From NCBI GenBank assembly GCA_947464275.1, contig CANHVU010000008.1:1-64000 (forward strand): a stretch of 64,000 nucleotides of DNA, given 5' to 3'. The notes under the pieces are model-generated. The model was given only the letters and a program-made list of their open reading frames with translations. It was not told the origin of the DNA and did not search any database. This stretch comes from Bacteroidota bacterium (GTDB lineage: Bacteria; Bacteroidota; Bacteroidia; UKL13-3). Both the position numbers and the translations under genes were made by a program. The stretch's first letter is position 1, and every line of letters starts with the position of its first letter. Positions 6,693-43,021 of this stretch are shown here, in pieces.

Positions 6693-9377
6693 ATGAACAA
6701 AGATTATACATTACGCCTTTCGGGCTTGGAGCCATTGGTAATTACTAAAGATACCAATTTTGTAAATGTGGGAGAAAGAACCAATGTAACGGGTTCTAAG
6801 ATGTTTTTACGCCTTATTCGTGAAGGTAATTTTGAAGAAGCTTTAGCTGTTGCTCGTCAGCAGGTGGAAGGCGGTGCACAAATTATCGACATCAATATGG
6901 ATGAAGGAATGATTGATGGTGTGGAATCAATGGTTCGTTTCTTAAATTTGATTGCTTCTGAACCAGATATTTCTCGTGTTCCAATCATGATTGATTCTTC
7001 TAAATGGGAAATTATAGAAGCTGGATTAAAATGTGTGCAAGGTAAATGTGTGGTAAATTCTATTTCGCTAAAAGGTGGCGAAGAAGAATTTATCCGCCAA
7101 GCAAAAATTGTAAAACGTTTTGGAGCAGCAGTAATCGTAATGCTTTTCGATGAACAAGGACAAGCAGATAATTACGAACGCAGAATTGAAATTGCTGAAA
7201 GAGCTTACAGGGTATTAACAGAAAAAGTTCATTTTCCTGCGGGTGATATTATTTTTGACCCTAATATTTTTCCAGTAGCTACTGGCATGGAGGAGCACAG
7301 AAAAAATGCTTTAGATTTCTTTAACGGAACAAAATGGATTAAAGAAAATTTGCCAGGCGCAAAAGTTAGTGGTGGCGTATCAAACGTTTCTTTCTCGTTT
7401 AGAGGTAATGATAAAGTGCGTGAAGCCATGCACTCAGCATTTTTATTCCATGCTATCAATAATGGAATGGATATGGGCATTGTAAACCCAAGTCAGTTGG
7501 AAGTTTATAGCGAGATTGACAAAGAACTTTTAGAACATGTAGAAGATGTATTATTGGATAGAAGAGACGATGCTACTGAACGTTTATTAGAGCTTGCAGA
7601 ACGTGTTAAAGGAAAAGGAAAAGAAAGCATTGTTGATGATGAATGGCGCAAAGGAACAGTTCAAGAGCGTTTGAGTCATGCGTTGATAAAAGGAATTGTT
7701 GAATTTGTAGAAGCAGATACCGAAGAGGCAAGGTTAATTTACGACAAACCACTTGAAGTGATTGAAGGCCCTTTAATGGCTGGAATGAACATTGTGGGTG
7801 ACTTGTTTGGTGCTGGAAAAATGTTTTTACCCCAGGTAGTAAAAAGTGCTCGTGTAATGAAAAAAGCTGTGGCTGTTTTGATGCCTTACATGGAAGAAGA
7901 AAAGCGTAAAAATGGCAACATGACCACCAACCAAGGCCGCATATTAATGGCAACTGTAAAAGGCGATGTGCATGATATTGGTAAAAACATTGTAGGTGTG
8001 GTGTTGGCTTGTAATAATTACGAAATTATTGATATTGGCGTAATGGTTCCTGCCGAAAAAATATTAGAAATAGCTGTTAAAGAAAATGTAGATGTAATTG
8101 GTTTAAGTGGATTGATTACACCAAGCTTGGATGAAATGGTACACGTAGCCAAAGAAATGGAACGTTTAGGAATGAAAATTCCATTGTTGATTGGAGGAGC
8201 TACAACAAGCCGTGCGCACACAGCAGTAAAAATTGACCCTGTTTATAGCGGACCAGTTGTACATGTGTTAGATGCAAGTAAAAGTGTACCTGTAGCGGCA
8301 AGTTTAATCAGTCCTGATCAACGACCAGCTTCTGAAAAGAAATTTAAAGACGAGTACGAGCAATTTAGAATAGATTATAAAAACCGTAAAAAAGATAAAA
8401 ACTCGGTTGATTTAGCAAAGGCTAGAGCTAATAAAATTCCTGTTAGTTTTGACAATATTGTTGCACCTAAATTTTTAGGCACAAAAGTATTTGATAATTT
8501 TCCGTTAGAAGAATTGCGCCAACGCATTGATTGGACTCCTTTCTTTTTAACTTGGGAATTAGTGGGACGTTATCCAGCCATTTTTAATGATGAAATAGTA
8601 GGTGTAGAAGCAAAAAAATTATTTGACGATGCCAATAAAATGCTCGATAAAGTAATTAACGAAAAACTACTTACCGCGCGCGGTGTAATAGGTTTTTATG
8701 AAGCCAATTCTGAGGGTGATGATGTAATTGTAAAGACGTTGCATGCAACGTCTCTACAGGAAACAACTTTCAACTATTTGCGCCAACAAGGCGAAAAAGC
8801 TGATGGACAACCTTACTTATGTTTGGCAGATTTTGTAGCTCCGAAAGAAAGTGGCAAAAAAGATTATCTAGGCATGTTTGCCGTAACAGCAGGAATTGGA
8901 ATTGAACCTTTGGTTGAAGCTTACGAAAAAGACCATGATGATTATAATAGCATTATGATTAAAGCCATTGCTGATAGATTGGCCGAGGCTTTTGCTGAAA
9001 AAATGCACGAATTGGTTAGAAAAGAATATTGGGGTTTTGCACCAAACGAGCAATTAACCGATGATGAAATAATCAGAGAAAAATACAACAGTATTCGTCC
9101 TGCGCCAGGTTACCCTGCCTGCCCTGACCATACTGAAAAACGCAAGTTGTTTGATATTTTACAAGCTGAAACCAATGCAGGGATTGTATTAACTGAAAAC
9201 TTTGCCATGTATCCAGCTTCGGCAGTAAGTGGTTTTTATTTTGCCAATGATGCAAGTAAATACTTTGCAGTTGGTAAAATTCAAAAAGACCAAGTAGAAG
9301 AATATGCCAAACGCAAAAACGTAAGCATTGATTACGTTGAAAAATGGTTAGCTCCTAATTTGGGGTATGATAATTAA
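6693..9377 (+). CDS. metH2: Methionine synthase, folate/cobalamin/reactivation half (MetH C-terminal modules)
   Basis: 894 residues in MetH order. The pterin-binding barrel begins with '[17 protein letters not shown]' (residues 20-37 area). The cobalamin module has its axial histidine in [10 protein letters not shown] near residue 425. The C-terminal SAM-dependent reactivation domain has [15 protein letters not shown] near residues 802-816. The enzyme moves the methyl group of 5-methyltetrahydrofolate to cobalamin and on to homocysteine bound by the partner protein at 5132. Codons 681-687 lie within a perfect 20-base palindrome (AGACGTTGCATGCAACGTCT, 8734-8753), encoding KTLHATS-type residues just before the conserved [10 protein letters not shown] helix. 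It looks like a repeat accepted in frame in a loop of the reactivation domain. The C-terminus LGYDN and downstream terminator are duplicated at 16134. Confidence 0.93.
8734..8753. repeat. Perfect 20-nt palindrome inside metH2
   Basis: AGACGTTGCATGCAACGTCT equals its own reverse complement and is followed by CTACAGG. It is in frame within the coding sequence, where MetH proteins normally have a short variable loop, so it reads as an inserted palindromic repeat. Confidence 0.75.
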
Positions 9378-9576
9378 AATTAAATTCTAAAAAAGAAATT
9401 CTAAATTCGAAGAACTTATCGTCAAACGATTGCATTAAGGTTTATGTTGGCAAGGTGTCAGACGGTTATAGTGTTATTAACTCATTTGAATTACAATAAC
9501 TAATTATTTAAAAATAAAACCGCTTTACACAAATACTAAAGCGGTTTTTTATTAACTTGCTAAAAAGAATAAGTGG
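9361..9576. repeat. Segmental duplicate A: metH2 3' end plus terminator region
   Basis: The 216 bases from the last codons of metH2 (GGGTATGATAATTAA) through the terminator to AAGTGG match 16134-16349 over their whole length, by eye at roughly 80 percent, in the same orientation. Shared landmarks are GTTGGCAAGG, AGACGGTTAT, CAACTCATTTG-like text, TAACTAATTATTTAAAAA and the AACCGCTTTA hairpin. Confidence 0.75.
9516..9550 (+). terminator. Intrinsic terminator after metH2
   Basis: AAACCGCTTTA pairs with TAAAGCGGTTT and is followed by a T run. It closes the riboswitch-metH1-IVP-metH2 transcript. Confidence 0.8.
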
Positions 9577-9606
9577 ATAATCGCACCAGCGAAGTGCTAG
9601 AAATAG

Positions 9607-9688
9607 CCTCATTGCGAGGTACGAAGCAATCTCAGGTCATGTGTAATAGTTACTTGCTTGAGATTGCTTCTCTGCGATCGCAATGACG
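9607..9688. repeat. Short palindromic element, copy 1 (CATTGCGAGG...CGCAATGACG)
   Basis: Left arm CTCATTGCGAGGTACGAAGC and right arm ending GATTGCTTCTCTGCGATCGCAATGACG form an imperfect inverted repeat with an 82-base span. It belongs to the same family as the gene-bearing elements at 9730 and 18210. Confidence 0.75.
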
Positions 9689-9729
9689 TTTGCTGCTGCA
9701 ATTTCATGCTGACTCATATTAAAAAAGTG

Positions 9730-10161
9730 CGGAACGAGGAACGAAGCAATCTCAAGTTATGTGAAACGTATGTTTTAAAATTCTATTGTTTCATACAAAT
9801 CAATCCATTCTTTATTCATTGAATCAATAAGTTTTATTTTGCTATTTCTTGTGCCAGATTTGATTCTCTTTTCTTCGTTTATTGCTTCTTCTATAGTGCT
9901 GAAATAATTGTAATAAACCAATTTAGTAATATTATACTTCGCGGTAAACGATTGAGGAAAATAGTGCGTTTTATGCTGCCAGATTCTTTTTTGCAAATTA
10001 GATGTAACACCAATATATAAAACTGAATTATCTTTATTGGTTAAAATATAAACACATCCACCCTTAGTCGTTTATTAATCTTTTTTATGAAGGAAATAAA
10101 TCTTTCCATGACAAATTTCCAATAAATCGCTTGAGATTGCTTCACTGTATTCGCAATGATG
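9730..10161 (-). mobile_element. Gene-bearing palindromic element, copy 1 (decayed)
   Basis: The left arm (GAGGAACGAAGCAATCTCAAG, outer end deleted relative to copy 2) lies about 10-20 bases past the GIY-YIG stop. The right arm (TCGCTTGAGATTGCTTCACT...CGCAATGATG, 10127-10161) lies upstream of the gene. The layout and size (about 0.43 kb) match the element at 18210-18644. The outer flanks (TTTGCTGCTGCAATTTCAT..., TTAAAAAAGTGCGG) also match the spacers of the second array. Confidence 0.65.
9775..10065 (-). pseudogene. GIY-YIG nuclease gene, start codon lost
   Basis: The reading frame encodes 96 residues equal in length to the intact copy at 18259, with about 8 amino-acid differences (GGCVYILTNKDNSVLYIGV..., ending EWIDLYETIEF). 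The codon aligned with the initiator ATG of copy 2 is AAG (10065-10063), and two in-frame stops lie just upstream. The only internal start in frame is a TTG at 9996, which would remove the GIY half of the active site. I therefore read it as inactivated by a single-base start-codon change, with the rest of the frame still open, so the loss looks recent. Confidence 0.75.
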
Positions 10162-10201
10162 TTTGTTGATATACTTTCTCCTGCAAAAGTGCTAGAATTA
10201 T

Positions 10202-10283
10202 CGTAATTGAGAGGTACGAAGCAATCTCAGGTCATGTGAAATAGTTACTCGATTGAGATTGCTTCACTATGATCGCAATGACG
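10202..10283. repeat. Short palindromic element, copy 2
   Basis: CGTAATTGAGAGGTACGAAG ... GATCGCAATGACG, 82 bases, the same arms and centre (CAGGTCATGTGAAATAGTTACTCG) as the copy at 9607. It follows the gene-bearing copy after a 40-base spacer, giving the order short, gene-bearing, short. Confidence 0.75.
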
Positions 10284-10421
10284 TTTGTTGCTGATTGATT
10301 AAAAACTTTTTCAAAGTTTATGTTAATTTATTAAAGGAAGATGCTTACAGCATAAACGAGTGCGAAGTTCGAAATGTTGACTGCGAACTAAAATCCAATT
10401 AAGCTTTGCATTTAATTATTT

Positions 10422-11165
10422 CTATTTGCGGCTAATCAAATTTAGTAGCGTATCTAACTTATCGGTTGATACTGATATTTGGTGTTCTTTATTTACCAAT
10501 GCATATCCTCCATCATTTCTTACATATTCATTTATATAATTGATATTAACTATAAACGATTTATGACTCCTGAAAAAGAAAGCAGTATCGGCTAAAATAT
10601 CCTCATAAGTTTTAAGGCTTTTACTTGCCAAAATTTCTGTTTCATCGTTTAAAATAATGCGTGTGTAAGCACCATCTGCTTTAAAAAACAATATTTCGTT
10701 TATATCAATAAATTTTATGGACCCAGTAGTATAAATAGCTAATTTCCTTTGTTGTGTGGTGTTTGATAAGTTATCTTTTAAAATACCAAAATTTTGTTTG
10801 TGATTTTGTTTTCTAAAACGTTCCAATGCAGTTTCTAAATCGGCAATCTCAATAGGCTTTAGTAAATAATCAATAGCCGAAAACTTAAAAGCTTGAATGG
10901 CATATTGATTATAAGCTGTGGTAAAAATTACTGAAAAATTTATTTCCTCATCGTTAAAAAACTCCAACAATTCCAAACCGCTATGCCCTGGCATTTCTAT
11001 GTCTAAAAACACCAAATCAGGATTGAGCTTTCGTATTGCTTTTACACCAGTTGGTAAATCTTTACAGCTTTCTACAATGGTTATATCTTTACAATATTCA
11101 TTAAGCATGCCCTCCAATAAGGTGCGAGCCATTTTTTCATCATCTATAATTACAGCTTTGTACAT
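10422..11165 (-). CDS. LytTR-family response regulator
   Basis: 247 residues. The receiver domain at residues 1-120 has the acidic pocket (IIDDE at 6-10), the phospho-acceptor D55 in LVFLDIEMPG, and the conserved K in LLKPIE. The LytTR DNA-binding domain spans about residues 140-245 and contains FFRSHKSFIVN, the usual recognition-strand motif. It follows the sensor kinase gene at 11175 by 9 bases on the same strand. Pairs of this kind (LytS/LytR, YehU/YehT) are phosphorelay systems in which the kinase signals to this regulator. Targets cannot be read from the sequence. Confidence 0.92.
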   Translation of the reverse strand: MYKAVIIDDEKMARTLLEGMLNEYCKDITIVESCKDLPTGVKAIRKLNPDLVFLDIEMPGHSGLELLEFFNDEEINFSVIFTTAYNQYAIQAFKFSAIDYLLKPIEIADLETALERFRKQNHKQNFGILKDNLSNTTQQRKLAIYTTGSIKFIDINEILFFKADGAYTRIILNDETEILASKSLKTYEDILADTAFFFRSHKSFIVNINYINEYVRNDGGYALVNKEHQISVSTDKLDTLLNLISRK

Positions 11166-11174
11166 GTATTAGTT

Positions 11175-14060
11175 TTAAGTTAGAGGTATGGTGAGTGTTA
11201 CGGTAGTTCCTGTTGCATTTCCAATTTCGTTATAATTGTCGGTAATAATTACAGCTACTAGTTTGTTTTTACTTTTATTTAAAATTTCTAAACGTTTTTT
11301 ATTGGCCTGAGTGGAAAAAGACTGATGCTTACTATCTTTTATTTTATTCAATTGCTCAGAACGTCTTCTTCCCACTCCATTATCGTTAATGGTTACAACC
11401 AAATTGTTTTCAGTACAATCAAATAAAACAGATAAATTTTTCTTTCCTTCCTTGTGAAGCAAGCCATGTTTGATAGCGTTTTCTATATATGGCTGCACCA
11501 ACATTGGAGGTAATTTATCCATTTCTTTATCTATTTCAAGGCTTACTTTTATTTCAAAGTAAAAGTCGTCTTCAAAACGCATTTGTTCCAAGGCAAGATA
11601 GAGGCTTAGTGCTTCTATTTCTTCGCCTATGGTAATAGTATCCTTTTCGCTCATTTCAAGAATCATGCGTGTTAGTTTTGAAAACTTAGACAAGTAATTG
11701 CTTGCATTTTTTTTATCGTTAATAAAAATATACGATTGAATGGTATTAAGTGCATTGTAAAAAAAATGAGGATTCATTTGCGATTTGATAGAAGTTAATT
11801 TTGATTTATTTAACTCATTTTCCAAAACCATTTTTTCGGTTACCAGTTTATTCTTTTTTATCAATAATCCAATTTGCCATTTGTAATAACCAAATCCTGA
11901 AACAGTTAAAACAGCAACTATTAATAACAAAAACCACCATTGTAACCAAAAAGGTTTATTAATTTTAAAATTTACAACAGCATTGGTAAGTACGGTATTA
12001 TTAATTTTAAACTGAATGGTATAATTACCTGGCGAGAGCGAGGCAAACTGAAGAGAACGCATATTAGGCATGGTATTAACCCAGTTTTCGTTATTTATTT
12101 TGTAAGCAATATTTTGGTTTTGAAATTGAACATAATTAAGCAAAGCATAATTAATAATTATATTGTTTTCTTGGTACGATAATGATTCGTTTAATATTGC
12201 ATAAGGCTTTCCCTTTACTTCATAATTTTCTATTACAAAATTGGGTTTTACTTCAAGTTTATTTAACCCATTTATACTTACACTAATTATTTTATTATTT
12301 GTTAAAACATGAAGTTGATTTTTCTCTAAAATAAAATCATTTATTTCACTAGTTTTTAATGGTATTGCAAGATCATAGGTAGTTCTATTTAAATTTTCAG
12401 TATCAATAATTACAAATTTGTCGTTACCCAAAATACACAAATAATTACCAAAAGCTTTTATTTTTTTTACTTCTTTTATATTAATATTGGGTAGGTTATT
12501 TAGCGAATTAAAAATGGTATCGTTAGTGATGGTAATTAACTCGCCTTTGGTGGTTAATGCTAATATAAACGATTTACAAGCTATTAGCTTTGAAACAAAA
12601 ACACTTTGGTTGTTTTGCTTTATTTCAGTTTGATAATAAATGGTTTGCTTATGAAGCCCAATATTTGAACCGCAGTAAATAGCATTTTGGCTTGGACTAT
12701 ATGCCACTGTTTTGGCCCTGATACTACTAATAAATTTGGCTACATTTTTATTGTCTTCTTTTAGTTTTTTATTGTAAAATGCATCCCATTTTGATGGAAT
12801 ATTTTTATTGGCATTTGGCGAAATAACCAAATTAGCGTATCCACTTATGGCTTGTGCATAGTATTTATGATCAATCTTTGCAATTGATTTTAAAGCAAAA
12901 TCTTCATGTTTAATAAAACCAAATGGCTTTGATTTAAAAATACTAATACCAAGCGAAGAAGTGTATAATAAATCTAAAGTTGAATCGTAATAGGTATAAT
13001 AAATAGATGCATTGCTTGGATTTTGAAATAACTTTTTGTGTGGTTCAAAATTATTGTTTAGTGCCACCACCTCATTATTTTGAGTAAAAAGTAAATAACC
13101 ACTTTTTGTTTTTTCAAATAAACTAGGCACATAATTTTCAATAGAAACAAACGTGGTTTGAAGCGAAGGAATGATAAATATACCTTTATTAATGGACGAT
13201 ATCCAATAGTTATTATCCCTATCTTTTATAACACACGAAATACTTTGATCTTTAAAATAATGTTTGTTTCCATTTTTGCCAAATACATAAGCACCATTAG
13301 GAGCTAAAACCCAATAATCATTATCTATTAAATGCAAATTTTGAATGAGTTGAGGCCCGCTTATTTTAAAAGCAGGTTGCAACTTATCTTTATCAGCAAA
13401 ATACAATTGTTCGTTTTCATTTTCTCGAGCAGTTAAAACCAAATTATTATTGGTGGCATATATTTGATTGTTTTTTTCATTACTTGCAATTTTGGCATTA
13501 GTGGATACTAAAGTTAAATTAGAGGTAATTTTATAAAGTATTTTATTCGCTGTGAAGTAATAACTATTGTTATAGCAGGCTGTGTTGTTAAAATCCTTAT
13601 TATCAAATAAAATTGGTATTGTTTTAATTAAATGTAAAGTTTTAATATCATAAACATCAACACCTTTACTTTGAAGTAAGTACAAATAACGATTGGTTAA
13701 TCCAAAAGCAAAAAAGCCAATTGGTTTGTTTTGATTCAATGCATGTAATGAATCATTTTCTATATAATAACAATAACCATCAAAATTTTGATACCAAATT
13801 CTTCCCAAACAATCTTCTTTTAAATTACTACCTGATGCTGATGTTTGTTTAGGGTTTTTGTATGTTTTAAAATTAAATCCATCATAGCGACTTATTCCCT
13901 CTTGGCTTGCTATCCATATATAACCCTTTTTATCTTGTAAAAGACTATATACATTGTTGGAAGGTAAACCCTTTGTATCATTTAACACCGTATAATAAGG
14001 CTGCTGAGCACTTATTAAAATTGGCATGACAAAAGTTATTATAAATAATAGCGCTCTCAA
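11175..14060 (-). CDS. Sensor histidine kinase with periplasmic beta-propeller (LytS-type kinase domain)
   Basis: 961 residues. A TTG start gives a proper signal peptide (MRALLFIITFVMPILISAQQ). The next in-frame ATG would cut it in half, so TTG is preferred. The periplasmic part starts with a two-component-regulator propeller repeat (LPSNNVYSLLQDKKGYIWIASQEGISRYDG) and continues with diverged blades. It ends in a Y_Y_Y-like beta-sandwich (about 615-690, LSPGNYTIQFKINN). One membrane helix (about 695-718) precedes the kinase, which has the PF06580-type motif NPHFFYNALNTIQSYI (phospho-acceptor His near 763) and the N-box PYIENAIKHG. A TATATTTG box on the minus strand lies at 14088-14081, about 20 bases before the start. 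It is expected to sense an extracytoplasmic cue and phosphorylate the regulator encoded next. Confidence 0.9.
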   Translation of the reverse strand: MRALLFIITFVMPILISAQQPYYTVLNDTKGLPSNNVYSLLQDKKGYIWIASQEGISRYDGFNFKTYKNPKQTSASGSNLKEDCLGRIWYQNFDGYCYYIENDSLHALNQNKPIGFFAFGLTNRYLYLLQSKGVDVYDIKTLHLIKTIPILFDNKDFNNTACYNNSYYFTANKILYKITSNLTLVSTNAKIASNEKNNQIYATNNNLVLTARENENEQLYFADKDKLQPAFKISGPQLIQNLHLIDNDYWVLAPNGAYVFGKNGNKHYFKDQSISCVIKDRDNNYWISSINKGIFIIPSLQTTFVSIENYVPSLFEKTKSGYLLFTQNNEVVALNNNFEPHKKLFQNPSNASIYYTYYDSTLDLLYTSSLGISIFKSKPFGFIKHEDFALKSIAKIDHKYYAQAISGYANLVISPNANKNIPSKWDAFYNKKLKEDNKNVAKFISSIRAKTVAYSPSQNAIYCGSNIGLHKQTIYYQTEIKQNNQSVFVSKLIACKSFILALTTKGELITITNDTIFNSLNNLPNINIKEVKKIKAFGNYLCILGNDKFVIIDTENLNRTTYDLAIPLKTSEINDFILEKNQLHVLTNNKIISVSINGLNKLEVKPNFVIENYEVKGKPYAILNESLSYQENNIIINYALLNYVQFQNQNIAYKINNENWVNTMPNMRSLQFASLSPGNYTIQFKINNTVLTNAVVNFKINKPFWLQWWFLLLIVAVLTVSGFGYYKWQIGLLIKKNKLVTEKMVLENELNKSKLTSIKSQMNPHFFYNALNTIQSYIFINDKKNASNYLSKFSKLTRMILEMSEKDTITIGEEIEALSLYLALEQMRFEDDFYFEIKVSLEIDKEMDKLPPMLVQPYIENAIKHGLLHKEGKKNLSVLFDCTENNLVVTINDNGVGRRRSEQLNKIKDSKHQSFSTQANKKRLEILNKSKNKLVAVIITDNYNEIGNATGTTVTLTIPLT

Positions 14061-14250
14061 ATTTTAGATTTAATAGTTATCAAATATAGTTTGATATAAT
14101 AAAATAAGGATTGGTATTTTACCAAACCATAAAAAACTGCAATCAAATTGCTAATGTAGTTAATAAACCTAAAATATTACTTTAAACAGAAAGTTTTGAT
14201 AAATTGACTCTCAAAAACTCTTAACAATTAATAAAAATAATTTTTTGTAT

Positions 14251-14349
14251 AACAGAATATAAAAAGTGAGTTAATAAAACTTCACCAACTCAAATAGCTT
14301 TTTCATTTTAAAAAGATCAGTTTTACAAACTAGTATTATTTTAAACCCC
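14251..14349. repeat. Intergenic duplicate, copy 1 (about 99 bp)
   Basis: AACAGAATATAAAAAGTGAG to TATTATTTTAAACC matches 15321-15418 with a long identical core (GAGTTAATAAAACTTCACCAACTC...TTTTTCATTTTAAAA). The core contains the inverted pair GAGTT/AACTC. The two copies flank the small secreted-protein gene in direct orientation. The rest of 14061-14482 shows no ORF that I can support. Confidence 0.75.
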
Positions 14350-14470
14350 AACTATACTTATTATCAAGTGTGGATGTATAAAATCCGATTCTTTACAAAT
14401 CCTTTTTGCAGTTTCATATGCTTTTTATAGCTTTTTGTAAAACAAGCCAAATTCAAAAATAGTAGCAAGC

Positions 14471-14478
14471 TACTTTTG
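14471..14478 (+). promoter_or_regulatory. -7 box (TACTTTTG) directly before the start codon
   Basis: TACTTTTG fits TAnnTTTG and ends only four bases before the ATG at 14483, so the transcript would be leaderless or nearly so. No TTG is seen at the usual -33 distance. Confidence 0.4.
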
Positions 14479-14482
14479 TACC

Positions 14483-14986
14483 ATGATACATAAAATATTA
14501 CTAACCGTTACGTTGGCTTTAAGCTTGGCCTTTACGTCTTATGCTCAAAACACTAAAGAGCAAATAAAGGAAAATAAAAAAGAAGGTTGTAGCGATAAAT
14601 TCAACGTAGATGAGAGCAACATCGTAATCAACAACGATAAGTCTTTCCTCAGTGGCTACTTCGCTATCCGTTTCGATGCCAAAAGTGATGTGCCCACTAC
14701 CATGAAGGCGATTATGAAAATAATGGATTGCAAAGGCAATATTAGTTATATATCTATACCGTTGGTATTGGATGCAAAATCTAACCTTTGGGTAGGCAAA
14801 TTCGGCATCCCACAAGTGGCTGGCTGCCTTTTTAGTGTTGAAGCATTAACCTTAATCGTTACCAACGAATGTGGTGACGAGTTTGGTGAAACAAGTTATA
14901 AAGAAAAGGGTAATGTTGAAAGTGTTTTAGAAGCTAAATTTAAGAAACTAAAGGGTAGCAAATCAAAAGGCTACGAGGCATTTTAA
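14483..14986 (+). CDS. Small secreted protein of unknown function
   Basis: 167 residues with a clear signal peptide (MIHKILLTVTLALSLAFTSYAQ, cleavage after the Ala-Gln region at about 21-22). The mature part is a single predicted beta-rich domain with four cysteines (CSDKFN, MDCKGN, AGCLFS, NECGDE) that could form disulfides. The C-terminus is lysine-rich. I do not recognise the family. It stands alone between two copies of a 99-bp repeat and has a strong terminator. Its codon use is slightly less AT-biased than its neighbours, judged by eye. Periplasmic or secreted location is inferred from the signal peptide only. Confidence 0.7.
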   Translation: MIHKILLTVTLALSLAFTSYAQNTKEQIKENKKEGCSDKFNVDESNIVINNDKSFLSGYFAIRFDAKSDVPTTMKAIMKIMDCKGNISYISIPLVLDAKSNLWVGKFGIPQVAGCLFSVEALTLIVTNECGDEFGETSYKEKGNVESVLEAKFKKLKGSKSKGYEAF

Positions 14987-15009
14987 TCATTCAAATCTCG
15001 ATCAATTGC

Positions 15010-15046
15010 AAAAGCCCTGCCATCTAAAAACGATGGCAGGGCTTTT
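15010..15046 (+). terminator. Intrinsic terminator, 15-bp perfect stem
   Basis: AAAAGCCCTGCCATC pairs perfectly with GATGGCAGGGCTTTT across the loop TAAAAAC, followed by CTTTTTATCTTTTTTT. It closes the secreted-protein gene. Confidence 0.9.
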
Positions 15047-15320
15047 CTTTTTATCTTTTTTTAATAATCCATCATTGTTGCTGTTCAGCAATTATTTTCC
15101 ATAATTCCCAGGAACATCTATATCATACAAAACTCCAACTATCTGTGGAGTTAGCGAAGTGCTGTAAGGATTTAAAATGAAATGCAGTGGTCTTTAGCTA
15201 TCGGACTTTGACACGGGCAAACTAAAAAAGTTTACAAACTCTTTTTCTGTTAATTATTTCGCGGTTTTCGTGGTATGATTATAATTTAAAGATATCCAAA
15301 TCCAAAAGATTCTTTTATTT

Positions 15321-15418
15321 AACAGCATATAAAAGATGAGTTAATAAAACTTCACCAACTCAAATAGCTTTTTCATTTTAAAAATAATTGGTTTTATAAA
15401 CTTACATTATTTTAAACC
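15321..15418. repeat. Intergenic duplicate, copy 2 (about 98 bp)
   Basis: Same orientation as 14251-14349. The core from GAGTTAATAAAACTTCACCA onwards is identical, and identity drops only near the 3' end. Confidence 0.75.
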
Positions 15419-15477
15419 AATCATTATTTCATTTTTGAGGAGATAAAAAACATCAGAACATAAAAAAACACTATTAC

Positions 15478-15499
15478 CCGCACTCGCTAGCGAGTGCGG
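15478..15499. repeat. Perfect 22-nt palindrome
   Basis: The bases CCGCACTCGCT followed by their exact reverse complement AGCGAGTGCGG. It lies 40 bases before the HD-domain gene. It could fold into a cruciform or bind a dimeric protein, but no regulator is suggested by the sequence. Confidence 0.7.
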
Positions 15500-15539
15500 T
15501 GGATCGGGTGGTAATTCAAAAACGAATAAAATTTAAAAT

Positions 15540-16070
15540 ATGAATAGTGAAATAATCAACTTCGCAATTGAAGCGCATAACAAAACAAACCACTTATACG
15601 ATGGCAAACCTTATTCAGTGCATTTATCAATGGTAGCATTAAATGCAGTTCGATTTATTGATTGTATACCAACACAAAACCAAAACGATGTAATATTGGC
15701 TTGTTGGCTGCACGAAACTATTGAAAATTGCCGATTGACTTATACTGACATTAAAGAAGTAGCTGGAGAAACCGTTGCAAATATTGTTTATGCCGTTACC
15801 AATGAAAAAGGTAAGAACCGAAAAGAAAGGGCAAACGATGTTTATTATGATGGTATCAGAAAAACAATGTGGGCAAAGTATGTAAAGCTATGTGATAGAC
15901 TTGCAAATGTTCAATACAGCTATGATAATATGTCAACAATGTATGATGTGTATCAGGATGAAAACGATGCTTTTATAGAGGCATTATTTCCAAATGAAAG
16001 CGGAATGCAACATTATATAGAACTTATTAAAGAACTAAAATGTTTATTGAGTTCCAAGGTCGCAGCTTAA
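15540..16070 (+). CDS. HD-domain (RelA/SpoT-hydrolase-like) protein with an HE variant
   Basis: 176 residues with the fold pattern of the HD hydrolases related to SpoT/MESH1: first metal His at residue 28 (KPYSVHLSMVA), the paired ligands at 58-59 read HE (CWLHETIENCRLTYTDI) instead of HD, and the distal Asp at 119 (KLCDRLANVQYS). The surrounding order (YDGKPY..H, LHETIE, FG-less helix, KLCDRLAN) fits nucleotide-metabolising HD enzymes, perhaps a (p)ppGpp or NADPH hydrolase. The Asp-to-Glu change may keep or weaken metal binding. It stands alone inside the repeat-rich island. The substrate is not established by sequence. Confidence 0.7.
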   Translation: MNSEIINFAIEAHNKTNHLYDGKPYSVHLSMVALNAVRFIDCIPTQNQNDVILACWLHETIENCRLTYTDIKEVAGETVANIVYAVTNEKGKNRKERANDVYYDGIRKTMWAKYVKLCDRLANVQYSYDNMSTMYDVYQDENDAFIEALFPNESGMQHYIELIKELKCLLSSKVAA

Positions 16071-16133
16071 CGTATAACGTTTGGCTGCAATTGCAAGCGG
16101 AAAGCTAGTGAGGCTAAAAGTTGGCAACTCATT

Positions 16134-16349
16134 TGGGTTATGATAATTAAAATTAAATTCGAAAAAAAAATTCGAAATTCGAAGCACTTACCGTCAGACG
16201 ATTGCGTTAAATTTTGTGTTGGCAAGGCGTAAGACGGTTATTGAGTTATCAACTCATTTGGGACACTGTAACTAATTATTTAAAAACAAAAACCGCTTTA
16301 GTATACAACTAAGCGGTTTTTTTGTTCGTTTGCTATAGGGAACAAGCGG
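16134..16349. repeat. Segmental duplicate B of the metH2 3' end and terminator
   Basis: It begins TTGGGTTATGATAATTAA, matching the last codons and stop of metH2, and runs through a copy of the AACCGCTTTA terminator to AACAAGCGG. Overall similarity to 9361-9576 is roughly 80 percent by eye, in the same orientation. Here it has no metH in front and follows the HD-domain gene. Confidence 0.75.
16288..16323 (+). terminator. Intrinsic terminator (duplicate of the metH2 terminator)
   Basis: AAAACCGCTTA-type left arm pairs with TAAGCGGTTTT, followed by T-rich sequence. It probably serves the HD-domain gene and lies inside duplicate B. Confidence 0.75.
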
Positions 16350-16405
16350 ACGCTCACATTATTGGAAATTTGTATAAGCCAATTACAAGCTAGACTTGTT
16401 ATTCC

Positions 16406-17485
16406 CTATACTGTTTCCTTTGATTTATCGTAATTGTCTACAATTGCAAATAAGGTTTCAGCGTGTTTAAATATATCGTCAAGTGAAGTGATTTCATTTT
16501 TCACTTCCTTTTTTTGTTCGTCAAGTGTTACAAAATATTTTTTAGCACCGTTTAAGTATAGTCTACAAATCGTTTTACGGTTATTGTCGTCAAGTAAGAT
16601 TGCAAAATAGGATTGAGCATCGCGATAAGTTACTCTTGACACACTAATTTTTTGTCGAAGAATTGTTTTTATAATCATGAAACCTTCTAATTCTTCTTCG
16701 GTCGTTATTACTTTATTTTCGTCCACCTTTGCTTGTTCCGCTTGAATTGCTTCTTGTTCTTTTGTGTTTTCGTCTTCTTTTGTCAAAGCCGTTTTTAAAC
16801 GTTCAGTTATTAAATCGCTTATGTGTTGTTGAATTGACTTCTTTGTTAAACTAGTAAATTGTTCTAAAATTTTTGCAGTAATAACACTTGGGTAAACTTG
16901 TCTTGCAAAATGCTTTACAAAGTCAGGACTTGGATTCGTTAATTCTTGTTGCAAAATATGTTTAAGTTCATTTGTGTATTTTAATTCACTTGCAGTATTA
17001 GTAATACTTTCAGCATCAAAAATATTCTTATGAAACTTTTTTAGTTCTTCTATTTGGTTATCCTTAATTTCATTAATGTTAAACTCTAAAAATGGTTTTT
17101 CATCCATTTTATTTGCATCAACCAAATCAGAATAGAAACGATAAGAAATACCATTCGTTAAAAGACCAAATTTTGCTTTAGATACATGAAAATATCTTAG
17201 AATTTGACCATCGTGAACATTTAGATTTTGAGCCCAATGCTTACACTCAATTAGTATTGTTGGATTTCCATCTTTGAAAATTGCATAATCTATTTTTTCG
17301 CCCTTTTTAGTCCCAATATCTGTTATGTATTCTGGAACTACTTCAATTGGATTAAAAACATCGTAGCCTAATACTTGTAGAAATGGCATTATGAAAGCAT
17401 TTTTCGTTGCTTCTTCTGTTTGAATTTGATCTTTCAATTTGGCAACTCTGTCACCCAGTTGTTTGATTTGGTCTTTAAAGTCCAT
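16406..17485 (-). CDS. Orphan HsdR_N-type PD-(D/E)xK nuclease-like protein
   Basis: 359 residues. The N-terminal half matches the N-terminal nuclease domain of type I restriction R subunits and stand-alone type IV-like relatives: 'EEATKNAFIMPFLQVLGYDVF' (residues 24-44), then D66 in KIDYAIF and the E80-x-K82 pair in ILIECKHW, the PD-(D/E)xK catalytic set. This is followed by 'GQILRYFHVSKAKFGLLTNG'. The C-terminal half is charged, with a long Gln/Glu/Lys linker, and no helicase motifs are present. No modification or specificity subunit is nearby. Stand-alone proteins of this type are widespread and may cleave modified DNA, but activity here is inference. It belongs to the accessory island. Confidence 0.75.
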   Translation of the reverse strand: MDFKDQIKQLGDRVAKLKDQIQTEEATKNAFIMPFLQVLGYDVFNPIEVVPEYITDIGTKKGEKIDYAIFKDGNPTILIECKHWAQNLNVHDGQILRYFHVSKAKFGLLTNGISYRFYSDLVDANKMDEKPFLEFNINEIKDNQIEELKKFHKNIFDAESITNTASELKYTNELKHILQQELTNPSPDFVKHFARQVYPSVITAKILEQFTSLTKKSIQQHISDLITERLKTALTKEDENTKEQEAIQAEQAKVDENKVITTEEELEGFMIIKTILRQKISVSRVTYRDAQSYFAILLDDNNRKTICRLYLNGAKKYFVTLDEQKKEVKNEITSLDDIFKHAETLFAIVDNYDKSKETV

Positions 17486-17532
17486 ATTTGTTTTTAGTTT
17501 TTACAAAGTTAATATTTCTCTTGTATGTCGTT

Positions 17533-17754
17533 CTACTTTTGGCTAAAAATTTTACAACAACAAGAAGTTGGCGATTTCAAAGCACTAAACTCTTTGCCGT
17601 TACTTAACTTGATACGTTGATAAAAATTTGATTTAAGCACTGAACCCGATTTTTTCCAAACGCCTATTAGCGGTTCGGCTTTCTTTTTCCAGTGTTTCCA
17701 TTCTTCCAATTTAATGTCTTTAACAATCGAGTCATTTGTGAACTCGATATACAA
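17533..17754 (-). CDS. Hypothetical protein fragment, 5' end running into a repeat
   Basis: 73 residues from a TTG codon (LYIEFTNDSIVKDIKLEEW..., ending SPTSCCCKIFSQK). The frame stays open upstream through the half palindromic element at 17789-17822 (NEAFSSNNWNIDNQKGK...), so the true N-terminus is probably lost or replaced by repeat sequence. The text between repeat and ORF (AATTGGAATATTGACAATC) resembles the leader of the two GIY-YIG copies (AATTGGAAATTTGTGATAA). I recognise no family. It lies 47 bases beyond the start of the HsdR_N-like gene on the same strand. Confidence 0.35.
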   Translation of the reverse strand: MYIEFTNDSIVKDIKLEEWKHWKKKAEPLIGVWKKSGSVLKSNFYQRIKLSNGKEFSALKSPTSCCCKIFSQK

Positions 17755-17788
17755 TATCTTACCTTTTTGATTGTCAATATTCCAATTA

Positions 17789-17822
17789 TTGCTTGAAAAT
17801 GCTTCATTATGTTCGCAATGAC
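17789..17822. repeat. Half palindromic element (right arm only)
   Basis: TTGCTTGAAAATGCTTCATT...GTTCGCAATGAC matches the right arm of the family. No left arm is found on its other side, where the fragment ORF begins. Confidence 0.6.
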
Positions 17823-17867
17823 TTTTGCTACTGTAATTTCATAATATTAAAAAAGTGCGGGAACAAT

Positions 17868-17945
17868 CGTCATTGCGAGGAACGAAGCAATCTCAAGTTA
17901 TGTGTAATACTCGCTTTAGATTGCTTCGCTACATTCGCAATGACG
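17868..17945. repeat. Short palindromic element, array unit 1
   Basis: CGTCATTGCGAGGAACGAAG...GCTACATTCGCAATGACG, 78 bases. It is separated from the next unit by a 44-base spacer (TTTGCTGATGTAATTTCATA...GTGCGGGAACAAT), giving a 122-base period. Confidence 0.8.
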
Positions 17946-17989
17946 TTTGCTGATGTAATTTCATAATATTAAAAAAGTGCGGGAACAAT

Positions 17990-18067
17990 CGTCATTGCGA
18001 GGTACGAAGCAATCTCAAGTTATGTGTAATACTCGCTTTAGATTGCTTCACTACATTCGCAATGACG
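17990..18067. repeat. Short palindromic element, array unit 2
   Basis: 78 bases, nearly identical to the unit at 17868 (GAGGTACG for GAGGAACG, TTCACT for TTCGCT), and starting exactly 122 bases after it. Recent tandem duplication is likely. Confidence 0.8.
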
Positions 18068-18111
18068 TTTGCTGATGTAATTTCTCGTACTAAAAAAAGT
18101 TCGGAAACTAT

Positions 18112-18193
18112 CGTCATTGCGAGGTACGATACAATCTCAAGTTATGTGAGATTATTACTCGCTTGAGATTACTTCACTACGTTCGCAATGACG
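18112..18193. repeat. Short palindromic element, array unit 3
   Basis: 82 bases with the centre TATGTGAGATTATTACTCGC. Its right-hand centre TTACTCGCTTGAG matches the sequence just outside the GIY-YIG gene in the next unit. Confidence 0.8.
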
Positions 18194-18209
18194 TTTGCTG
18201 ATGTAATTT

Positions 18210-18644
18210 CGTCATTGCGAGGAACGAAGCAATCTCAAGTTATGTAAGGCGTTTGTTTTTAAAATTCTATTGTTTCATACAAATCAATCCATTCTTTATT
18301 CATTGAATCAATTAATATTATTTTACTATTTCTCGAGCCAGATTTAATTCTCTTTTCTTCCTTTATTGCTTCTTCTATTGTACTGAAATAATTATAATAA
18401 ACTAATTTAGAAATATTATACTTTGCTGTAAACGATTGAGGAAAATAGTGTGTTTTATGTTGCCAGATTCTTTGTTGCAAATTAGATGTAATACCTGTAT
18501 ATAAAACTGAATTATCTTTATTAGTTAAAATATAAACAAATCCACCCATAGTTATTAATTAGTCTTTTTTAGGAACTAAATAAACCTTTTTATCACAAAT
18601 TTCCAATTACTCGCTTGAGATTGCTTCACTATGTTCGCAATGAC
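18210..18644 (-). mobile_element. Gene-bearing palindromic element, copy 2 (intact GIY-YIG gene)
   Basis: Left arm CGTCATTGCGAGGAACGAAG...CTCAAGTTATGT (18210-18245) and right arm TTACTCGCTTGAGATTGCTT...CGCAATGACG (about 18607-18644) are those of the short copies, but about 360 bases containing a complete GIY-YIG gene lie between them. Short units equal this element with the interior between TTATGT and TTACTCGC removed. The same order (short, gene-bearing, short) is found at 9607-10283. It is read as a small mobile or formerly mobile element with MITE-like derivatives; the mechanism is inference. Confidence 0.7.
18259..18549 (-). CDS. GIY-YIG nuclease (YhbQ/UvrC-like single-domain) inside palindromic element
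   Basis: 96 residues forming one GIY-YIG domain: N-terminal strand MGGFVYILTNKDNSVLYTGI (VYI for GIY, YTG for YIG), then the catalytic Arg in NLQQRIWQHK, and a Glu in the helix IEEAIKEEKRIK, ending in EWIDLYETIEF. The family contains homing endonucleases, UvrC N-domains and small unassigned nucleases. The gene occupies nearly the whole interior of the element: its stop is about 14 bases from the left arm and its start about 60 from the right arm. The start codon ATG is intact here, whereas copy 1 has AAG. The nuclease may drive movement or conversion of the element, by analogy with homing nucleases and RAYT/REP pairs; this is inference. Confidence 0.85.
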   Translation of the reverse strand: MGGFVYILTNKDNSVLYTGITSNLQQRIWQHKTHYFPQSFTAKYNISKLVYYNYFSTIEEAIKEEKRIKSGSRNSKIILIDSMNKEWIDLYETIEF

Positions 18645-18696
18645 GTTTGTTGGTGTAATTTCATTGTAACTCGTACTAAAAAAGTGCGGGAACTAT

Positions 18697-18793
18697 CGTC
18701 ATTGCGAGGTACGAAGCAATCTAAAGTTATGTATGATAATTGTTAGCTTGAGATTGCTGGTTATTGCTCTCACATTAAATGTTCGCAATGACG
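18697..18793. repeat. Short palindromic element, array unit 5
   Basis: CGTCATTGCGAGGTACGAAG...TTAAATGTTCGCAATGACG, 97 bases. The right arm is enlarged by a short insertion (GGTTATTGCTCTCACATTAA). It closes the 17.8-18.8 kb array. Confidence 0.75.
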
Positions 18794-18930
18794 TTTGTTG
18801 GTGTAATTTCAATAGCGAATCGCTAGCAAATGCTTACCCCCAAAACAAATAATTTTTCACATAATTTTATTTTTTATTGAAACTATAATTTGCAGCCCAT
18901 TTTGGTTCATTATATTGCGCTCCAATAACT

Positions 18931-20547
18931 ATGATTAAATTTTTATCCCAATACACCACCAAACAAGCATGGCTGCAGGCAATTCTGCTTTTTGTATGTT
19001 TTGGAATTGGGTTTTATAATTTCCCGTTAAGTTTAGTACAAACCAATTTTAGCTATATGCCTGGCGATTTAGGCGATGCAAGGTTTATAAACTTTGTACT
19101 GGAACATGGCTATCAATATCTAATAGGCAATCAACCTTCGTTTTACGATGCTACCTTTTTTTATCCTGCCAAAAACACTTTGGCTTTATCGGATAATATG
19201 GTTGGAACATTACCCATTTATGCCATTTATAGAGCCTTACATTTTGATAGAGAAACAGCTTATCAATGTTGGTGGTTAAGCATATTTGTACTCAATTATT
19301 TTATAGCATTTTATTGTTTTTATAAAATTACCAAAAATAGTTATGTATCTATTTTAGGAGCCTACTTGTTTACTTTTTCCATGATCATGTTTGGGCAATG
19401 CAATTTTACCCAACTCAATATCCGTTTTTTATTACCGGTTATTATTTTAGCAGCTTATAATTTAGCTACTCTTGCCAAACCTAAATACTATTATTATTTG
19501 GTGTTAGCCGTTGCTTTTCAGTTTGTATTAGGCGTTTATTATGCCTTCCTTTCAGTATATTTATTGGTGATATTTTTTGCTTGTTATGCCCTCATTACAC
19601 GCAAATTTGATTTTATAATTCAGCTGTTTTATAATAAAATGCAAAGCATAAAAACCATTGCTTACACTTTAGCCGTTATTGGTTTATTGGCGCTTTACAT
19701 GCAAAATTATATTGAAGTTTCTAAGCACGTTAATCTGCATAAATTTAGCGAAGTATTACACCTAATGCCAACTTTTACAAGCTACACTTTAGCTAACGAT
19801 GCTAGCACTTGGGCCTTTACCAATAAATATGGGAAAAACTTATTAGCTGATAGATGGTGGTTAAACGAGTTTTTTATGGGAGTATTTTCTATTGGTTTAT
19901 TAATTAGCTACGCAATTATTACTTTTAAAAACAAAGATTCAAATAAATTTTTAGTAGTTGCTATTGGTATGGCTATCGTTTGCAGTTTATTGTTTGCCAA
20001 TAAATACAGTGTTTTAGCCATTTTTTATTACTTACCCGGCTTTGGAAGTTTATCGGTATTGGTTAGGGTAATTACAGTAATTTTTACTCTAATAGTATTT
20101 GTCAATGTGCTATTTTTAAATGACCTATTTTTAAAATACAAAAAATGGTGTTTGTTTATCTTTATAAGTTTGTTTGCCTTATTGTTTATCGATAATCATG
20201 TAGATGCAAGCAAACTAACCAGAACAAAAAAAGAAACCATTTTAAACAGATACAAAACCATAGAAACACAAATTGGCAATCATAAAAAACCTATTTTAGC
20301 CATAGTAAGCGAAGGCGATGATTGGAAAAACTTCAAATTTCATTTAGATGCAGCATTGTATGCGCAAGCCCATCAAATGAAGAGCATTAACGGCTATTCG
20401 AGCAATGCTCCGCAAAATTTTGGAGGCTTTTGGGAAAAACATAACCGAAAAACCTTGAATGATTGGTGTATTTATAATAATATTGACACCAGTAAAATAA
20501 TAATAATTGATAATATAAACCTTGTAACCTCGGTTAATAACGAATAA
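18931..20547 (+). CDS. Polytopic membrane protein, possible GT-C-like glycosyltransferase
   Basis: 538 residues with about a dozen hydrophobic segments. After the first helix there is a loop with acidic residues (SYMPGDLGDARFINFVLEHGYQ) placed like the catalytic first loop of GT-C lipid-linked-sugar transferases. Conserved aromatic text follows (DATFFYPAKNTLALSDN). The C-terminal 100 residues form a soluble domain (ILAIVSEGDDWKNFKFHLDA) as in that group. I cannot place it in a named family with confidence. It is the first of three closely spaced genes, with a CoA-transferase subunit 7 bases downstream and a GT22-like protein next. A role in cell-envelope glycan synthesis is inferred. Confidence 0.6.
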   Translation: MIKFLSQYTTKQAWLQAILLFVCFGIGFYNFPLSLVQTNFSYMPGDLGDARFINFVLEHGYQYLIGNQPSFYDATFFYPAKNTLALSDNMVGTLPIYAIYRALHFDRETAYQCWWLSIFVLNYFIAFYCFYKITKNSYVSILGAYLFTFSMIMFGQCNFTQLNIRFLLPVIILAAYNLATLAKPKYYYYLVLAVAFQFVLGVYYAFLSVYLLVIFFACYALITRKFDFIIQLFYNKMQSIKTIAYTLAVIGLLALYMQNYIEVSKHVNLHKFSEVLHLMPTFTSYTLANDASTWAFTNKYGKNLLADRWWLNEFFMGVFSIGLLISYAIITFKNKDSNKFLVVAIGMAIVCSLLFANKYSVLAIFYYLPGFGSLSVLVRVITVIFTLIVFVNVLFLNDLFLKYKKWCLFIFISLFALLFIDNHVDASKLTRTKKETILNRYKTIETQIGNHKKPILAIVSEGDDWKNFKFHLDAALYAQAHQMKSINGYSSNAPQNFGGFWEKHNRKTLNDWCIYNNIDTSKIIIIDNINLVTSVNNE

Positions 20548-42921: not shown

Positions 42922-43021
42922 TTCCGCTTTGGCGGAACTACGGAATGACCCAATATTATGTCCGTCATTGCGAGGCACGAAGCAATCTCGCACTTAGATT
43001 GCTTCGTGCCTCGCAATGACG
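42922..43021. repeat. Two hairpin repeats between crtD and cruF
   Basis: TTCCGC-TTTG-GCGGAA (42922-42937), then the most perfect member of the CGTCATTGCGAGG family (42963-43021): two 26-bp arms that are exact reverse complements around the 7-base loop CGCACTT. The 205-base gap they fill is the only long one in an otherwise compact gene set. Confidence 0.85.

Follow-up and report, generated by a model that had tools for sequence, protein, structure and literature searches.

A small GIY-YIG nuclease gene enclosed by CGTC-REP-like repeats in Bacteroidota, a candidate enzyme partner of these repeats

Analysis of a 64,000-nucleotide stretch of a Bacteroidota genome (assembly GCA_947464275.1, contig CANHVU010000008.1, positions 1 to 64,000; referred to here as the window) revealed a gene for a small GIY-YIG nuclease enclosed by inward-pointing copies of a short hairpin repeat. 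The repeats (GTCATTGCG type) and the nuclease probably form a CGTC-REP-like family with an enzyme of its own, in which nicking and repair would drive the turnover of the repeats. Judged from the sequence comparisons given below, the pairing of enzyme and repeat is not a matter of chance, and the nuclease very probably recognises its repeat; that it also drives the spread of the gene-bearing unit is quite possible, falling somewhat short of likely. From these comparisons we infer that the enzyme cuts the repeat and, plausibly, that it drives mobility.

The gene-bearing unit spans 436 bp (18210–18645, minus strand) and consists of a left REP, the GIY-YIG gene, a leader and a right REP. It contains CGTCATTGCGAGGAACGAAGCAATCTCA and a mirror-image right arm that ends with CGCAATGACG, the arms being inward-pointing CGTCATTGCGAGG hairpin repeats with CGTCATTGCGAGG beginning at 18210. 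The left REP (18210–18237, plus strand) reads as the hairpin CGTC-ATTGC-GAGGAACGAA-GCAAT-CTCA; the right REP (18617–18645, minus strand) lies in reverse orientation and ends with CGCAATGACG. The 96-codon gene that a preliminary description of this DNA had placed on the minus strand was confirmed at 18259–18549 by its open reading frame and by the match of the 96-residue product to the GIY-YIG domain (Pfam PF01541, E = 1.4e-14). A structure model reached pLDDT 96.4, and the nearest fold was UPF0213 BH0048, with Slx1 next. The match of TIGR01453 to the protein was weak and far under the cut-off. Residues Y6, Y17, G19, R27, E65 and N84 were invariant among 46 homologues, so that the nuclease looks catalytically intact. 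A known defence gene was rejected as an identity, PADLOC giving no match, and so was a phage origin after 0 matches among 50,697 phage records.

A second gene-bearing unit, in decayed form, was located at 9733–10161 on the minus strand. Its left arm is truncated, being without its first bases (AAGTGCGGAACGAGGAACG) and hence without the CGTCATTGCGAGG start, and its right arm has one mismatch. The GIY-YIG copy in this unit (9775–10062, minus strand, 92% identical) has AAG in place of the ATG start, yet its frame is open. The common plan that had been proposed for the two loci thus holds for the unit at 18210–18645, and the 9.7-kb copy departs from it by the truncated left arm and the lost ATG. 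The two genes differ at 14 synonymous and 9 non-synonymous positions, and the dN/dS of 0.12 points to constraint through most of their divergence. Between the two gene-bearing repeat arrays (9377–18900) lie about 8 kb with genes for a LytTR regulator, a sensor kinase and others; in genome G004 metH directly adjoins the gene found at 18931 in window numbering, and the stretch of about 8 kb is missing. A second repeat family (9377–9519 and 16149–16291; 143 nt, 81% identity), with a motif like CCGTCAGACGATTGCGTTAAGG...AAGGCGTCAGACGGTTA, occurs in several repetitions at one site of G004.

Six short copies and one pure hairpin had been reported to share the arms of the unit, and all of them were recovered. 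The short copies are REP doublets on the plus strand at 9607–9688 (CGTC changed to CCTC), 10202–10283 (two mismatches in the left arm), 17868–17945, 17990–18067, 18112–18193 (with a centre resembling the joined edges of the gene-bearing unit) and 18697–18793 (with a larger centre). The doublets at 17868 and 17990, the former folding as one hairpin (z −6.3), belong to a 122-bp tandem array that starts with a lone right-arm remnant (17813–17823, minus strand); some of the short copies within 17784–18149 are therefore not independent insertions. The perfect doublet hairpin at 42963–43021, with 26-bp arms and a 7-nt loop, is absent at the orthologous site of G003; another hairpin is absent in G003 and present in G004, and a third is common to all three genomes. 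The exact 11-base arm CGTCATTGCGA was found 14 times in the window, counting either strand, and with up to two mismatches there were 22 matches versus 6.8 in the shuffled window. The whole genome contained 33 arm copies, versus 0 for the reversed control, again with doublets plus some single arms.

When the edges of the 18210–18645 unit were joined, the product closely matched the short doublets. The match claimed in the preliminary description is thus borne out; a loss from the unit as the direction does not follow from it, since congeners in which no matching gene was detected carry similar doublets. The short copies may be deletion derivatives, or they may represent an older form, the gene having been gained by a doublet.

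The enclosure of GIY-YIG genes by inverted repeats extends across the phylum. In 58 related genomes many GIY-YIG homologues were located between inverted repeats, whose sequence varies by subfamily. Comparison of each upstream flank with the reverse complement of the gene's own downstream flank (score of at least 16) gave a match for 49% of the 79 genes compared; with mismatched flanks the figure was 4.9%, and with shuffled flanks 2.3%. For a separate set of 75 named Bacteroidota loci (Pedobacter, Mucilaginibacter, Sphingobacterium, Chitinophaga, Algoriphagus and others), an inverted flank match was obtained in 59%, compared with 0.8% when positions were drawn at random from those loci. The sequence GTCATTGC was present within 300 bp of 59 of the 78 window-type homologues from Bacteroidota, and on both sides of 47, in agreement with the expectation that genes of this clade are regularly flanked by the arms; most close homologues have the repeat. 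The simplest units span about 380–425 bp, and all ten loci with exactly one arm per side had these pointing inward. The arm-to-gene distance varies (39–195 bp upstream) and many loci are complex arrays; over all loci the orientation of the nearest arm showed no preference (p about 0.8). A fixed-end transposon was set aside as an improbable model: the arms point inward in simple loci, but their distances to the gene vary. The earlier reading as a minimal element was accordingly sustained in part, in that the nuclease is regularly enclosed and unit-free sites exist, but distances vary and no target duplication was found. Genome G000 contains three further GIY-YIG genes, at C39:22888 (58% identical), C14:83748 (39% identical) and C2:794 (35% identical, broken); the C39 copy is accompanied by a tandem array of another GTCATTGC subtype and the C2 copy by repeats of GTCATTCA type. 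In a Dysgonamonadaceae locus (L145, about 2400–2850) the stretches of about 31 bp beyond the two arms likewise make up a near-perfect inverted repeat, which places the nuclease gene within a palindrome of more than 60 bp per side.

Repeats of other GIY-YIG clades differ in sequence, but all have the form GTCA-stem-GA-loop-stem'. The flanking repeats share GTCAnnnnGA, in which nnnn varies with the enzyme clade, and within 300 bp of the genes GTCAnnnnG[A/T] was observed 235 times versus 38 expected. When repeat type was mapped along a maximum-likelihood tree of 63 enzymes, 40 of them labelled by repeat type, 18 changes were required, versus a mean of 28.5 and a minimum of 24 in 300 shuffles. In 296 of 567 repeats the reverse complement of the stem Annnn followed within 46 nt and closed it, versus 19 when the stem of another type was used, and closure held for TTGC, CTGC, TCGC, TGCT, TGCC, CCCT, TCCT, TTCC, TTCT, TTTC, GTTC and others (over a dozen types). 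A single 28-nt REP folded no better than shuffled sequences (z −0.5), so that the stem rests on this covariation and not on energy. Covariation across types thus means that selection keeps a hairpin and that the hairpin changes with the enzyme, which in turn points to an enzyme recognising the single-stranded repeat.

A tblastn search of a plasmid collection that includes chromosome-sized records labelled as plasmids (e.g., NZ_CP119140.1 and NZ_AP026896.1; N. gonorrhoeae, 2.17 Mb, and Aeromonas, 4.94 Mb) yielded homologues in Neisseria gonorrhoeae, Azospirillum, Sinorhizobium, Rhizobium, Shinella, Sphingobium, Novosphingobium, Neorhizobium, Aeromonas and Planktothrix. Of the 13 homologues inspected, 11 had CGTC-type REPs, or slightly deviating forms of them, on both sides, the enclosed ones being from N. 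gonorrhoeae, Azospirillum, Sinorhizobium, Rhizobium, Shinella, Sphingobium, Novosphingobium, Neorhizobium and Planktothrix; on inspection, the Rhizobium tumorigenes homologue had no flanking REP and that of Photobacterium had one on one side only. The same flanking pattern occurs in Alpha-, Beta- and Gammaproteobacteria (Pseudomonadota) and in Cyanobacteria. The homologue from N. gonorrhoeae shares 43% identity with the window protein and lies between CGTCATTCCCGC...GCGGGAATC repeats of dRS3 type, and that of A. lipoferum between REPs CGTCATCCCCGCGAAGGCGGGGATCCA.

Among 247 genomes of the class, at least five exact copies of CGTCATTGCGAG were found in 19 of the 22 with a strong window-type nuclease, in 23 of 71 with weaker homologues and in 8 of 154 with none (Fisher p = 2.6e-12 for strong nuclease versus the rest, kinship not corrected for). 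The remaining three strong-nuclease genomes had close variant arms, and all 22 thus carry the repeat or a close variant. Within the genus, each of the ten genomes has the repeat (2–34 exact copies), and among them the matching nuclease was found in the window's genome and not in the nine congeners. Genome G072, of the same class (one contig, 100% complete), contains 588 exact CGTCATTGCGAG copies; its search revealed no small GIY-YIG gene (only UvrC and a 460-residue GIY-YIG protein) and no Y1 transposase match. The supposed dependence of copy number on an intact gene was thus found in one direction, a strong nuclease going with repeats, but repeats are also abundant without the gene: the number of copies is no simple function of gene presence, and repeats persist without a matching nuclease.

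Presence and absence of the unit were seen when sites were aligned as the preliminary description had proposed, but the flanks had diverged and gave no clean joint. In A. lipoferum the spacer between sufB and sufC, inside the suf operon, holds a REP doublet, the gene and another REP doublet. In 11 other Azospirillum records (94.7% to 85.5% identity) the flanks were covered and the stretch of the unit had no match, and five inspected records had a short sufB-sufC spacer without the unit. Since the outgroups are without the unit, these alignments are most simply explained by its gain in A. lipoferum. The two stretches that flank a gene-bearing unit in G013 are separated by 28 bp in G034 (82–83% identity), and G025 has a different palindrome at this site; the equal 28-bp spacing at the G013/G034 site could not be aligned, and we give it no weight. 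Comparisons of the window's genome with G003, G004 and G006, of G013 with G034 and within Azospirillum showed presence or absence, but the intergenic flanks were too diverged to reveal an exact insertion boundary or a target duplication.

The belief that no named family has this design was not supported by comparison with the CGTC-tagged REP superfamily of Di Nocera, De Gregorio and Rocco (2013), which includes dRS3 of Neisseria and RPE-4 and RPE-6 of Rickettsia and which the present repeats resemble (PMC3733652). Members of that superfamily have a stem of 8–9 bp, a loop of 4–5 nt and a CCA tail, and 'apparently lack a dedicated transposase', none having been found at transposase genes; the survey reported no associated enzyme and did not mention GIY-YIG (PMC3733652). 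The window repeats agree with them in the CGTC tag, the A-T first stem pair (CGTC-ATTGC...GCAAT), the short stem-loop and the dispersed copies in head-to-head doublets, though some arms are single. They differ in the 5-bp stem, the loop of about 10 nt and the CTCA tail, and are therefore called CGTC-REP-like; the pseudomonadotal repeats fit better. CGTC-bearing taxa of the survey (Neisseria, A. lipoferum, S. meliloti and N. aromaticivorans; PMC3733652) carry a GIY-YIG gene between such repeats, and the obvious candidate for the partner that CGTC REPs have lacked so far is the GIY-YIG protein. Among the papers available to our literature search, none linked GIY-YIG to REPs.

With RAYT/REPIN systems (TnpA-REP; GTAG REPs) the window system shares a dispersed doublet of short hairpins and a cognate enzyme gene flanked by the same repeat, but RAYT is a Y1 HUH transposase and the tag is GTAG, whereas here the enzyme is GIY-YIG and the tag CGTC. 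GIY-YIG homing endonucleases (I-TevI and free-standing forms) have the same catalytic domain and possibly a similar spread by break-induced copying; unlike them, the window protein is a single 96-residue domain with no intron or intein and no fixed target gene, and the GIY-YIG genes lie in intergenic positions, both in the window and in those annotated records that were inspected. A 2025 study in Nature Communications reportedly described Ssn, a family of site-specific single-strand nucleases with the NTS repeat in Neisseria, in which a small GIY-YIG enzyme is accompanied by many repeat copies and each homologue is said to have its own repeat. The N. gonorrhoeae protein between dRS3-type repeats may be the published Ssn. 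The window system is like Ssn/NTS in its small GIY-YIG enzyme and in a multicopy cognate repeat specific to the homologue, and unlike it in the GTCATTGC-type repeat, the host phylum Bacteroidota, and the repeat-bounded units and unit-free sites described here. Ssn enzymes are reported to cut single-stranded DNA only, at specific sequences, a trait that the window enzyme may share. The best reading of the unit would be a REPIN-like system with a cognate GIY-YIG nuclease, most like Ssn/NTS; the formal label Ssn hinges on single-strand cutting, and if that paper contains repeat-bounded Bacteroidota genes, less is new here.

Each repeat is a short hairpin with a CGTC tag, a 5-nt stem ATTGC, a GAG loop, the counter-stem GCAAT and a TC tail, often in head-to-head, REPIN-like doublets with the nuclease gene inside or between them. 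In the mechanism that we consider probable, the enzyme would recognise its cognate repeat as a hairpin in single-stranded DNA, exposed by replication, by transcription or in incoming single strands, and would nick it. Repair of the nick against other copies could then spread, delete or rearrange repeats and now and then take the nuclease gene with it in a REP-bounded unit, which would make the system a GIY-YIG counterpart of RAYT/REPIN. Rejoining of DNA is not known from GIY-YIG enzymes, and any spread must therefore rely on host repair.

Chance placement, with two independent short repeats landing on either side of the gene, is hardly conceivable: the intergenic regions of the genus are full of palindromes and arm distances do vary, as the preliminary description had foreseen for such a case, but the flank statistics (49% versus 4.9% and 2.3%; 59% versus 0.8%) speak against it, and the pattern recurs in Alpha-, Beta- and Gammaproteobacteria and Cyanobacteria. 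Strong folding of the doublets and their close flanking of the gene would also suit hairpins that serve a small nuclease gene as terminators or in autoregulation, a regulatory role that tens to hundreds of dispersed copies far from the gene, and stems that change with the enzyme family, render very improbable. A RAYT/TnpA-REP or other transposase might instead move the repeats in trans, the GIY-YIG gene being a passenger. This is improbable in turn: Y1 transposases exist in the window's genome (11 matches) and repeats persist without the GIY-YIG gene, but none of 20 Y1 loci had the repeat nearby, on which ground RAYT was rejected as the mover, G072 combines its 588 copies with no Y1 match, no CGTC REP was found at transposase genes (Di Nocera 2013, PMC3733652), and a repeat type that tracks the phylogeny of a mere passenger is not expected.

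A service to the host deserves more weight, although we hold it to be unlikely. The nuclease and repeats would then be kept since single-strand cutting at the repeats tunes transformation or recombination, and not for selfish spread; Ssn in Neisseria is said to act in this way on natural transformation or recombination, the N. gonorrhoeae homologue with 43% identity to the window protein sits between CGTCATTCCCGC repeats, and the dN/dS of 0.12 indicates purifying selection on the gene. The patchy occurrence within the genus, several nuclease/repeat pairs per genome, the decayed copy and the lineage-specific presence look more like selfish turnover.

With nicking and repair-driven turnover as the preferred reading, a specific enzyme candidate, a lineage-stem code and sites with and without the unit can be set beside the 2013 survey, which left the mover of CGTC-tagged REPs open. 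If the nuclease drives the spread, this would be a second REPIN-like system in bacteria, built on an unrelated enzyme. A wider proposal, rather doubtful at present, is that the whole CGTC REP superfamily, in several phyla, consists of selfish miniature elements that GIY-YIG single-strand nucleases maintain through a stem code that can be read, the REP-bounded genes of about 400 bp being the autonomous form; if true, these would move without a transposase and rank with the smallest autonomous mobile elements. The enzyme-repeat pairs may also be a natural source of nucleases with different hairpin specificities on single-stranded DNA. As to genomic neighbourhood, the GIY-YIG/REP unit of Planktothrix agardhii plasmid p1 (L266) is located between an MmeI-type restriction-modification gene and the DISARM gene drmA.
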